DNA from: Thioclava sediminum
GTDB taxonomy: Bacteria; Pseudomonadota; Alphaproteobacteria; Rhodobacterales; Rhodobacteraceae
Assembly: GCF_002020355.1 (NCBI RefSeq)
Contig: NZ_MPZV01000001.1
Span: 496,001 to 560,000, forward strand
Length of the DNA stretch: 64,000 bases
Direction: 5' to 3'
The notes beneath the pieces were generated by a model, which worked only from the letters and a program-made list of their open reading frames with translations, was not told the origin of the DNA and ran no database searches. The position numbers and the translations under genes are program-made. Position 1 is the first letter of the stretch. Every line of letters starts with the position of its first letter. Below, one piece after another: positions 23,383 through 40,141 of this stretch.

Positions 23383-23721
23383 GCAGATTCCTCCATTCCC
23401 GGGTCCGTCATCGGCCCGACTGCTCGTGATTTGGCCGGAACTGTGGCGTTTTTGCCGCGCAGTTCAAGTCGAGAACTGCCCAAATGGTCAGGAATCCCCC
23501 AAACGCCCCAAGGCAAGCGCACATATCTTGCGTCTGCGTCGCGAAAATGGGTCAGAATCATTCATGCATTTTCTGCATGGCGGCAATGAGGCTTCCCGGC
23601 ATTGTGCAGTCGCAGCATTAGCGCCATCTTTAGCCCAACGACGGAACACGAAGTAACGAATTCGGGCCGACAAGCTGGAACCGGCAGCGGCCCTCGCAAG
23701 TAGATAGATGAGGCTGAAACG
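23383..23721. other. Divergent promoter region between mrp and the DUF1127 gene
   Basis: No gene is visible in these 339 bp. It should carry the minus-strand mrp promoter and the plus-strand promoter of the DUF1127/sRNA unit; a candidate for the latter is listed separately. The segment 23540-23660 is somewhat AT-richer than the flanks. Confidence 0.5.
23601..23630 (+). promoter_or_regulatory. Candidate RpoH-type promoter of the DUF1127/sRNA unit
   Basis: ATTGTG at 23601-23606 and GCCATCTT at 23623-23630 are separated by 16 bp and resemble the heat-shock sigma factor pattern CTTGAA ... CCCCATnT in part. In R. sphaeroides the homologous operon is transcribed from an RpoHI/RpoHII promoter. The match here is partial, so this is a candidate only. 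Confidence 0.3.
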
Positions 23722-23925
23722 ATGGCACTCGTACAAGACATCCAACTGAACGAAGGCGGCTTCGCCGCGCTGAAATCGAAACTGACCGAAGCCCTGGCCC
23801 GCCGCAAGGTGTATCGCCAGACGCTCAACGAACTGCGCTCGCTCAACAGCCGCGAGCTGAACGACCTCGGGCTGCACAGCTCGATGATCACCCGCGTGGC
23901 CTACGAGGCCGCATACGGCAAGTAA
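23722..23925 (+). CDS. DUF1127 small RNA-binding protein (CcaF1-like)
   Basis: Protein of 67 residues. The C-terminal ~40 residues form the arginine-rich DUF1127 motif: ARRKVYRQTLNELRSLNSRE, then LNDLGLHSSMITRVAYEAAY. DUF1127 proteins are short and basic; in R. sphaeroides a homologue encoded directly upstream of the CcsR small RNAs (RSP_6037, CcaF1) binds RNA and affects sRNA maturation and turnover. Here too the gene is followed after 10 bp by CCTCCTCCC-loop hairpins, which makes the assignment to that system strong. GATGAGGCTGAAACG precedes the ATG. Confidence 0.9.
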   Translation: MALVQDIQLNEGGFAALKSKLTEALARRKVYRQTLNELRSLNSRELNDLGLHSSMITRVAYEAAYGK

Positions 23926-23935
23926 TTCGCTTCCC

Positions 23936-24007
23936 GAGCCCCTCTCCTCCTCCCTGGGGCTCAGGACTGCGGCGGCGCTCTCTCTCCTCCTCCCTGAGAG
24001 CGCCGCC
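23936..24007 (+). ncRNA. CcsR-type twin-hairpin sRNA, unit 1
   Basis: Two hairpins. The first, 23936-23962, has a 7-bp stem (GAGCCCC/GGGGCTC); the second, 23971-24007, has a 12-bp stem (GGCGGCGCTCTC/GAGAGCGCCGCC). Both close the same 13-nt loop TCTCCTCCTCCCT. The loop repeats the 3' end of 16S rRNA (CCUCCU) and can pair with Shine-Dalgarno sequences. The paired-hairpin layout matches the CcsR/cuckoo RNA family. Unit 1 begins 10 bp after the DUF1127 stop codon, so it is presumably cut from the same transcript. Confidence 0.88.
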
Positions 24008-24064
24008 ACACCAAACATACCGGCCTCAAGCGGCGCGACGCTGCGATGCCGGATCCGAGCTGCC

Positions 24065-24143
24065 CGGATCTCTCTCTCCTCCTCCCTGAGAGATCCGCGC
24101 CGAGCAGGCGGCGACCTCTCTCCTCCTCCCTGAGGTCGCCGCC
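24065..24143 (+). ncRNA. CcsR-type twin-hairpin sRNA, unit 2
   Basis: First hairpin 24065-24097 with a 10-bp stem (CGGATCTCTC/GAGAGATCCG); second hairpin 24107-24143 with a 12-bp stem (GGCGGCGACCTC/GAGGTCGCCGCC). Both loops are the same TCTCCTCCTCCCT. The stems differ in sequence from unit 1 yet pair perfectly, which shows selection for structure. A 57-nt spacer separates it from unit 1. Confidence 0.88.
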
Positions 24144-24192
24144 TATCACCGGCGGAAAGCTGCGACAGGCTGTCGCATGCTGCAGTGCAGCA

Positions 24193-24220
24193 CTTGATAT
24201 CCGGGCCGACAGGTCCAATG
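24193..24220 (+). promoter_or_regulatory. Possible internal RpoH-like promoter in the sRNA array
   Basis: CTTGAT at 24193-24198 and CCAATG at 24215-24220 are 16 bp apart and resemble RpoH elements. They sit in the longest spacer (87 nt) of the array, directly ahead of unit 3. The spacer also holds two short hairpins, GCGACA/TGTCGC and TGCTGC/GCAGCA. The evidence is a partial match only. Confidence 0.25.
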
Positions 24221-24230
24221 TGATACGAAA

Positions 24231-24298
24231 GGCCCTCTCCTCCTCCCTGGGCCGATCGTTTCGGCGGCACTCTCCTCCTCCTCCCTGAGGGTGCCGCC
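24231..24298 (+). ncRNA. CcsR-type twin-hairpin sRNA, unit 3
   Basis: First hairpin 24231-24253 with a 5-bp core stem (GGCCC/GGGCC), extendable through CGAAA/TTTCG across a bulge; loop TCTCCTCCTCCCT. Second hairpin 24263-24298 with stem GGCGGCAC/GTGCCGCC continuing through CTC/GAG and one G-T pair; its loop core is CTCCTCCTCCCT, embedded in one extra CTC repeat. The weak first and strong second stem recur in all five units. Confidence 0.85.
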
Positions 24299-24310
24299 AC
24301 AAAATACCGA

Positions 24311-24377
24311 GGGTCCTCTCCTCCTCCCTGGACCCGAGGGTGTGACGCCGCTTCCTCCTCCTCCCTGAAGCGGTGTC
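24311..24377 (+). ncRNA. CcsR-type twin-hairpin sRNA, unit 4
   Basis: First hairpin 24311-24335 with a 6-bp stem (GGGTCC/GGACCC) and loop TCTCCTCCTCCCT; second hairpin 24344-24377 with an 11-bp stem including one G-T pair (GACGCCGCTTC/GAAGCGGTGTC) and a 12-nt loop CTCCTCCTCCCT. The gap from unit 3 is only 12 nt, unlike the long spacers between units 1, 2 and 3, which suggests that units 3-5 arose by a more recent local duplication. Confidence 0.85.
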
Positions 24378-24390
24378 GACAGTGCCGAAG

Positions 24391-24475
24391 GGTCTCTCTC
24401 CTCCTCCCTGAGACCTGACGGCAGAAAAGAGACGGCGGCGCCCCTCCTCCTCCCTGGGCGCCGCCGTTTTCTTTT
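24391..24475 (+). ncRNA. CcsR-type twin-hairpin sRNA, unit 5, with intrinsic terminator
   Basis: First hairpin 24391-24415 with a 6-bp stem (GGTCTC/GAGACC) and loop TCTCCTCCTCCCT; second hairpin 24432-24467 with a 12-bp GC-rich stem (starting ACGGCGGCGCCC) and loop CTCCTCCTCCCT, followed directly by TTTTCTTTT. The last hairpin therefore serves both as the final CCUCC-loop element and as the Rho-independent terminator of the whole DUF1127/sRNA unit. Confidence 0.88.
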
Positions 24476-24499
24476 ACTCTCCGACAGGCTGACACGATG

Positions 24500-24555
24500 G
24501 AGGGGCGCTGCCCCGCGCGCTTCGCGCGCCCCCGGGATATTTCGGCCAAGAAGAA
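24500..24555 (+). repeat. Dispersed intergenic repeat, copy 2
   Basis: AGGGGCGCTGCCCC is followed by a GCGCGC arm pair, then CCCCCGGGATATTT, then GGCCAAGAAGAA. It lies between the sRNA terminator and rlmJ. Confidence 0.75.
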
Positions 24556-24610
24556 CGGCATTGCCCTCGCGCGCAGTGAACGGCAGGAAGGGCGCAAGGA
24601 GACCGAACCA

Positions 24611-27319: not shown

Positions 27320-27382
27320 GAGGGGGCGCTGCCCCCTCTTGGCTGCGCCAATTCACCCCCGGGATATTTCCGCCAAGAGGAA
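27320..27382 (+). repeat. Dispersed intergenic repeat, copy 3
   Basis: GAGGGGGCGCTGCCCCCTC is followed by ACCCCCGGGATATTT and CGCCAAGAGGAA. It lies 15 bp after the mntH stop. Confidence 0.78.
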
Positions 27383-40080: not shown

Positions 40081-40141
40081 CTTCGCCTTGGCGCAAATAT
40101 CCCGGGGGTGAGGCCGTCAGGCCGAGGGGGCAGCGCCCCCT
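40081..40141 (-). repeat. Dispersed intergenic repeat, copy 7
   Basis: On the minus strand: GGGGGCGCTGCCCCCTCGG, then CACCCCCGGGATATTTGCG, then CCAAGGCGAAG. It lies 10 bp after the uvrD stop, in reverse orientation to copy 6, so uvrD is bracketed by two copies pointing inward. Confidence 0.78.

Follow-up and report, generated by a model that had tools for sequence, protein, structure and literature searches.

The window analysed here is a stretch of 64,000 nucleotides from contig NZ_MPZV01000001.1 of Thioclava sediminum. It contains a ccaF1-like gene for a 67-amino-acid protein with a DUF1127 domain, followed by an array of ten RNA hairpins that all carry the 12-mer CTCCTCCTCCCT in the loop. 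Gene and array together are the form that the ccaF1-CcsR operon takes in Thioclava, with a set of small RNAs (sRNAs) of the cuckoo RNA type, in the association named “CIN1.” The promoter in front of the gene carries a conserved putative LysR-type box that resembles VtlR/LsrB sites. The features of the locus, in window coordinates, are as follows.

23565-23588, plus strand: putative LysR-type (VtlR/LsrB-like) box, composed of TGCA-N6-GCAT (23565-23578) and, overlapping with it, the 15-mer TGCATGGCGGCAATG (23574-23588).
23602-23607, plus strand: predicted -35 element TTGTGC, assigned by inference, at a conserved distance from the box.
23625-23630, plus strand: predicted RpoH-like -10 element CATCTT, likewise a putative assignment, at a conserved distance from TTGTG.
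23722-23925, plus strand: ccaF1-like gene, 67-amino-acid DUF1127 protein (PF06568, 41 bits, cut-off 23.3).
23929-24011, plus strand: CcsR unit 1, hairpins 1-2 (RF02791 49.0 bits; pair model R1 68.1 bits).
24059-24147, plus strand: CcsR unit 2, hairpins 3-4 (RF02791 42.6 bits; R1 60.2 bits).
24220-24302, plus strand: CcsR unit 3, hairpins 5-6 (RF02791 32.7 bits; R1 73.0 bits).
24303-24377, plus strand: CcsR unit 4, hairpins 7-8 (R1 59.9 bits over 24300-24386; no match to RF02791; RF02344 on hairpin 8 only).
24379-24476, plus strand: CcsR unit 5, hairpins 9-10 (RF02791 37.9 bits; R1 63.0 bits; hairpin 10 with GCCGTTTTCTTTT terminator-like).

The hairpins, read directly from the window sequence, are located at 23932-24469, with the first stem starting 6 nt past the stop codon of the DUF1127 gene. 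In a search of both strands that allowed up to one mismatch, the 12-mer was found ten times in the window, always exact, on the plus strand and inside the array (23944-24455), as compared to 0.31 expected copies and at most two in shuffled sequences. An earlier note on this DNA, made from the sequence alone, had counted ten hairpins in 540 bp with a shared loop, of which seven were exactly alike and three retained the core, and both counts stand: seven loops read TCTCCTCCTCCCT and the other three keep the 12-mer. It had also described the stems as fully complementary, which is correct for most of them, but hairpins 1 and 3 contain one mismatch each, and in hairpins 5, 7, and 9 merely 5-7 bp adjoin the loop before an internal loop; hairpins 6, 8, 9, and 10 include G-U pairs. 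The stem scores of six hairpins were equalled by none of 2000 shuffles of the flanks, as compared to 22, 154, 33, and 49 shuffles for the weaker hairpins 1, 5, 7, and 9. The alternation of weak and strong stems was rightly seen, hairpin 3 being the least clear case. Successive loops are separated by 40, 92, 44, 117, 38, 43, 37, 43, and 46 nt. The sequence TTTTCTTTT follows the stem of hairpin 10, again as previously stated, and this hairpin, running into GCCGTTTTCTTTT, can double as an intrinsic terminator. A generic terminator scan made no call at the end of hairpin 10, probably because the scan accepts only loops of 3-8 nt.

The identity of the locus was examined with Pfam, Rfam, and a covariance model of our own. 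The DUF1127 gene in front of the array, which the earlier note had named, matches PF06568 with the score given above, and its product is 100% identical to proteins of Thioclava sp. JE_KL1 and two further genomes of the genus, one of them possibly from the same strain. In a search of 841 bases, the CcsR1 family RF02791 matched units 1, 2, 3, and 5 with E-values from 7.6e-11 to 5.1e-6, while the ar14 family RF02344 scored 62.9 bits over hairpins 8-10, which is above its gathering score of 58.8. The pair model R1 was built from 46 two-hairpin units, with no locus labelled Thioclava among them. It identified six units with 59.9-73.0 bits in the 4.13-Mb genome, namely all five units of the array and one elsewhere, and no further match at E<=0.001 when 150 of the 1631 first-look candidates were scored. 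A covariance-model search had been proposed as a check on the assignment to DUF1127-linked CcsR/cuckoo RNAs in five units, with a lack of hits to the hairpins as the refuting outcome; such hits were obtained, and the matches to Rfam, Pfam, and R1 bear this assignment out. In the R1 alignment, 15 of 17 predicted pairs are changed on both sides with pairing retained, and each of the ten hairpins has doubly compensated positions among 14 genomes of the genus, a comparison in which kinship was ignored.

Two observations weigh against a simple family assignment. RF02791 recognizes only four of the five units, and none of the four reaches the gathering score of that family, 65.3; in the genus comparison, pairing in the weak hairpins 5 and 7 is kept in no more than 86 and 85 of 112 cells, respectively (inner eight positions in the 14 genomes). 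We take the low RF02791 scores to reflect the narrowness of that model rather than exclusion from the family. The division into five pairs is partly upheld: R1 scores hairpins 5-6, 7-8, and 9-10 as pairs (73.0, 59.9, and 63.0 bits), but hairpins 5-10 are evenly spaced at 37-46 nt, so that the spacers set apart only units 1 and 2, and RF02344 reads hairpins 8-10 as a triplet.

The sixth R1 match is a lone CcsR-type unit at C2:160203-160292 on the minus strand (71.9 bits), downstream of a gene for an HlyD-type membrane-fusion protein, with no adjoining DUF1127 match and without the LysR box.

Cuckoo RNAs were reportedly described by Reinkensmeier and Giegerich in 2015 as neighbouring hairpins that share one loop motif while their stems differ. 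Such cuckoo-type hairpins with a common loop motif are also reported in PMC3927594, and the Thioclava array follows the pattern, with adjacent hairpins, CCUCCUCCC in each loop and variable stems. The association of short DUF1127 genes with CcsR-like sRNAs is the one named CIN1 (PMC10253847), from which we find no essential difference here. The closest described system is the CcaF1-CcsR1-4 operon of Rhodobacter (Cereibacter) sphaeroides, which likewise consists of a DUF1127 gene, tandem sRNAs with anti-Shine-Dalgarno (anti-SD) loops and a terminator (PMC10253847), with four units as compared to five in Thioclava. The alpha-r14 sRNAs of Sinorhizobium meliloti (RF02344), including NfeR1, also combine anti-SD loops with hypervariable stems; according to PMC10746234, the sRNA NfeR1 has three hairpins and is transcribed from a sigma-70 promoter, whereas the Thioclava array is located in the 3′ untranslated region (UTR) of the DUF1127 gene.

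To place the array among its relatives, we compared 50 loci with a close CcaF1 relative, taken from titled genome records with a closer set of CcaF1 relatives as the basis of the locus search. These represent at most 49 assemblies, since L065 and L067 belong to one Cereibacter johrii assembly, and one of them (L040) is nearly identical to the window itself. An array is present behind the DUF1127 gene in all 50. The number of hairpins per locus was 4, 5, and 6 in one locus each, 7 in five, 8 in twelve, 9 in seven, 10 in sixteen, 12 in four, and 13, 14, and 16 in one each; these sizes are lower bounds, since the hairpin finder, which was seeded with CCTCCTCC, misses some hairpins whose loops are shorter. 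Three relatives from the group of R. sphaeroides, namely Cereibacter johrii, Cereibacter ovatus, and Luteovulum azotoformans, have eight hairpins, the number expected from four CcsR units, and C. changlensis has 12. Among 61 whole genomes of the family, 48 contain a CcaF1 match at E<=0.001, and in the best 30 of the 69 matches listed at least one hairpin lies beside the gene in every case (up to 17; a single one at two loci). The exact 12-mer CTCCTCCTCCCT occurs in 210 of 295 family genomes, a count in which a single copy may be due to chance, the reversed pattern also being seen now and then, and which misses arrays with slightly altered loops (G003, G006).

Within Thioclava, the finder used recovered ten hairpins in 14 of 16 genomes and nine in the other two. 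The earlier note had inferred the R. sphaeroides system with a fifth copy, which would make it a strong stress switch at the post-transcriptional level. Since ten is the commonest number in a range of 4 to 16 and is found across the genus, the fifth unit is ordinary; the note was mostly right, correct about the kind of system and wrong in treating its copy number as special. The array is thus an ordinary one for the family, in which size drifts from 4 to 16 hairpins and the loop is for the most part kept. One relative, G165 (C1:334200-337500), has as many as 26 copies of CCTCCTCCC in 1.2 kb behind its DUF1127 gene, repeating about every 140 nt on near-identical stems, apparently a recent tandem amplification of a three-loop unit.

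Taken as a whole, the locus is very probably a ccaF1-CcsR operon from which sRNAs with anti-SD loops are processed, under an RpoH-like promoter and a predicted VtlR/LsrB-type activator. Transcription, processing, stress induction, and silencing through the loops would follow by analogy with R. sphaeroides and S. meliloti, whereas the sequence, structure, covariation, operon conservation, box with its geometry, single LysR candidate, and target statistic were computed here. In R. sphaeroides, the CcsR RNAs are described as stress-induced and as cut from the ccaF1 3′ UTR with the help of RNase E and CcaF1 (PMC8625941, PMC10253847). In Thioclava, a single predicted transcript would begin some 85 nt upstream of the DUF1127 gene, continue through the gene and the five two-hairpin units, and end at the terminator of the last hairpin; its 3′ UTR would be cleaved into CcsR-type sRNAs by RNase E under the influence of the DUF1127 protein. 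The ten near-identical C-rich loops would mimic the anti-SD end of the 16S rRNA and cover ribosome-binding sites of the type GGGAGGAG, lowering the translation of uptake and catabolic genes, and ten equal loops would provide a higher dose and interchangeable units. Transcription would be set by the RpoH-like core promoter and the predicted LysR activator just upstream. A point against this scheme is that a DUF1127 protein can also act via the kinase PhoR, as reported in PMC12501420.

The evidence for the activator comes from the region upstream of ccaF1. In an alignment of 22 upstream regions, two blocks stand out as far more conserved than the remainder. The first contains TGCATGGC[AG]GCATTG, or a near variant, in most rows, and save for one position the reverse complement of this sequence is the reported VtlR motif CAATGCAGCCATGCA (PMC12595884). 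In Brucella, VtlR is described as an activator of the sRNA AbcR2 and of three DUF1127 genes (PMC12595884), and in Agrobacterium as one of three small transcripts (PMC7486931). The window 15-mer TGCATGGCGGCAATG agrees with the reverse complement of CAATGCAGCCATGCA at 13 of 15 positions, the T of TG not being kept, and it overlaps a TGCA-N6-GCAT, the form of the LsrB site reported from the NfeR1 promoter, which thereby shares this element with the region upstream of Thioclava ccaF1 (PMC10746234). This box was absent from the earlier note. All 50 titled loci have a box with at least 11 of 15 matches upstream of ccaF1, and 48 reach at least 12 (11 matches in two loci, 12 in 11, 13 in 19, and 14 in 18), as compared to at most 11 in control stretches of the same loci, a value reached once, and at most 10 in shuffled sequences. 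In a wider, overlapping set of 94 loci, which includes two (L065, L067) that scored 9 because they were anchored on another upstream hairpin and one (L014) that is too short, 82 reach 12 of 15, and shuffled sequences at most 11. The extended box has one mismatch-free site in the genome and one more at two mismatches.

The motif TTGTG is located 27 or 28 nt from the start of the box in all 50 titled loci, and 45 of them have CATNTT at a constant distance of 23 nt after TTGTG. In E. coli, the sigma-32 consensus consists of TTG and then CCATNT at -10. The window elements TTGTGC and CATCTT look like the -35 and -10 elements of an RpoH-like core promoter, in agreement with the RpoHI/RpoHII-type control described for R. 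sphaeroides ccaF1 (PMC10253847). A scan for sigma-70 promoters found nothing.

We searched for the corresponding regulator by sequence because the expected gene linkage failed: the order trxB-vtlR is reported as conserved in the class (PMC7486931), and here trxB has an AsnC-type regulator and a glyoxalase-like protein as neighbours. As query we used a LysR protein of an alphaproteobacterium (L192) that we take to be a VtlR/LsrB orthologue because its gene is placed behind trxB. At E<=1e-40, the query matched exactly one protein in 58 of the 61 family genomes, and in all 56 genomes that are at least 90% complete with at most 5% contamination. The sole match at this threshold in the T. sediminum genome (C1:1527699-1528562) is 49% identical to the query, contains both LysR domains according to Pfam, and shares 50 of its first 60 residues with it. 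This protein would be the single VtlR/LsrB-like candidate of the genome.

Several observations argue against a VtlR/LsrB site. Position 9 of the box, a T in the published motif, is A or G in 44 of the 50 titled loci, and four of the 16 genus genomes score just 10-11 of 15. The reversed motif reached 12 of 15 once in 94 control scans. With two mismatches allowed, the 15-mer has three sites in the window as compared to 1.57 expected by chance, so that only the exact site stands out. Moreover, trxB is without a LysR neighbour here, unlike in Agrobacterium, and VtlR/LsrB circuits are reported to have diverged between species (PMC7486931). The element could instead be the site of another regulator or a part of an extended RpoH promoter, a reading that the loss of T9 favours and with which the description of the R. 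sphaeroides promoter as RpoHI/RpoHII only (PMC10253847) would agree. Up to 14 of 15 matches, together with the separate TGCA-N6-GCAT match, speak against it, as do the N-terminal identity of the Thioclava LysR protein to the trxB-linked one and the single exact site in the genome, and we regard this alternative as rather unlikely.

We favour a VtlR/LsrB-type box as the more probable interpretation; LysR control of this operon is purely inferred. The described VtlR/LsrB regulon of Brucella, Agrobacterium, and Sinorhizobium comprises DUF1127 genes, the AbcR sRNAs, VrsA, and NfeR1; it resembles the Thioclava case in its box and in having DUF1127 proteins and anti-SD sRNAs as its targets (PMC12595884, PMC7486931, PMC10746234). 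Those targets are separate genes, whereas in Thioclava they would form one operon, with one box position differing as a rule and with predicted binding. On balance, we favour the view that in the Rhodobacteraceae the ccaF1-CcsR operon is a core target of the VtlR/LsrB-type LysR protein, perhaps the only strong one, in which a DUF1127 gene and anti-SD sRNAs are fused in one transcript, and that nutrient uptake and catabolism would be braked by ten loops under the joint control of this one LysR switch and RpoH. If the box works as predicted, the joint occurrence of DUF1127 proteins and anti-SD sRNAs across alphaproteobacteria would be explained by both being targets of one old LysR regulator, and it is this part of the locus that is worth following. 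A full-text literature search, in which the primary CcsR papers were outside the searched texts, found no paper in which CcsR occurs together with either VtlR or LsrB, none that mentions both CcaF1 and VtlR, and none that combines Thioclava with “small RNA.” A regulator of the VtlR/LsrB type has apparently not been linked to the ccaF1-CcsR operon before, and the box is the new part.

We also compared the start regions in the genome with the loops, of which CCUCCUCCC is an anti-SD sequence. At 41 distinct sites (44 matches), the complementary motif GGGAGGAG precedes an ATG with a spacing of 3-12 nt, as compared to 8 matches for the reversed pattern. Enrichment of loop-complementary Shine-Dalgarno (SD) sequences as such was rejected as an argument, since the control SD in the pattern GAAAGGAG-N3-12-ATG is equally enriched (32 matches vs. 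5 for the reversed pattern). The two sets differ in the genes that follow. Nine of the 38 open reading frames (ORFs) behind GGGAGGAG are for solute uptake, as compared to none of 29 behind GAAAGGAG (Fisher p=0.004); they encode five solute-binding proteins, DctP, DctM, a sodium:solute symporter, and an ABC permease. Of the remaining ORFs behind GGGAGGAG, 21 have a Pfam family, 15 of which we interpret as catabolic or redox enzymes, and another 8 are without a family. The GGGAGGAG set consists of the 38 sites with a mechanically called ORF of at least 40 amino acids, all of which were scanned; for the control, 30 of the 32 matches were fetched and 29 ORFs scanned. The five genes for solute-binding proteins are located at C1:98187 (L105), C1:1046649 (L121), C1:1059718 (L122), C2:841766 (L170), and C4:421577 (L173), and GGGAGGAG in their start regions is complementary to CUCCUCCC. 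The comparison is weakened by several circumstances: a single control motif was used, enzymes are also common in the control set, and the uptake category, although taken beforehand from the NfeR1 literature, had its exact borders drawn after the families had been seen. The list of targets is a predicted one.

Multivalent identical loops are typical of decoys, as in Csr-type sRNAs, and the hairpins could by the same logic titrate an RNA-binding protein, CcaF1 or another, with pairing to mRNA being secondary. The RNA binding of CcaF1 and its action in the maturation of CcsR (PMC10253847, PMC12501420) would suit this explanation, as would the modest size of the loop-target statistic. Loops of the same family are nevertheless reported to silence mRNAs by pairing: in S. 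meliloti, the three anti-SD loops of NfeR1 act redundantly at the ribosome site, and NfeR1 mutated in all three no longer silences (PMC10746234). We thus consider titration as the main function improbable, and silencing by the anti-SD loops remains the preferred interpretation.

The conservation of the loop relative to the stems bears on whether the array acts in trans at all. With the four-letter seed CTCC, which does not impose the core, CCTCCTCCC is present in 194 of 208 strong-stem hairpins of the 50 arrays; with the seeds CCTCC and TCCTCC the numbers are 268 of 283 and 338 of 354, and with the CCTCCTCC-seeded finder 393 of 394, a value largely imposed by the seed. The stems vary, with 241 distinct left arms among 394 hairpins from 44 of the 50 loci (L040, L044, L046, L064, L067, and L083 set aside). 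Since the loop is retained even with the four-letter seed, selection seems to act on the loop itself. If the array merely stabilized the DUF1127 mRNA or terminated its transcription, with no activity in trans, as its position in the 3′ UTR and the terminator-like hairpin at its end might suggest, a kept loop on varying stems would be unneeded. With the lone unit on C2 away from any DUF1127 gene, and with the R. sphaeroides CcsR RNAs described as acting in trans on flhR mRNA (PMC8307010), this explanation is very improbable. A DNA-level repeat (REP/BIME or CRISPR-like) or a coding repeat, for which only the open minus strand at 23488-24597 could be cited, was rejected as having next to no credibility, since only one of the nine loop spacings is a multiple of three, the spacings shift between relatives, the stems covary as RNA, and the place behind DUF1127 is fixed.

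The minus-strand ORF, which spans 369 amino acids and is open across the whole array, probably arises from the composition of the repeated GGGAGGAGG. Separate inverted repeats are present at 24161-24191 in the long spacer that divides unit 2 from unit 3 (TGCGACAGGCTGTCGCA at 24161 and GCTGCAGTGCAGC at 24179), a possible processing or protein site. In addition, a dispersed element, CCGGGATATTTCNGCCAAGAAGAA, occurs in three copies with up to three mismatches, as compared to none expected by chance, at 24532-24555, 27359-27382, and 40082-40105 (minus strand), and one of these copies is located directly behind the hairpin array.

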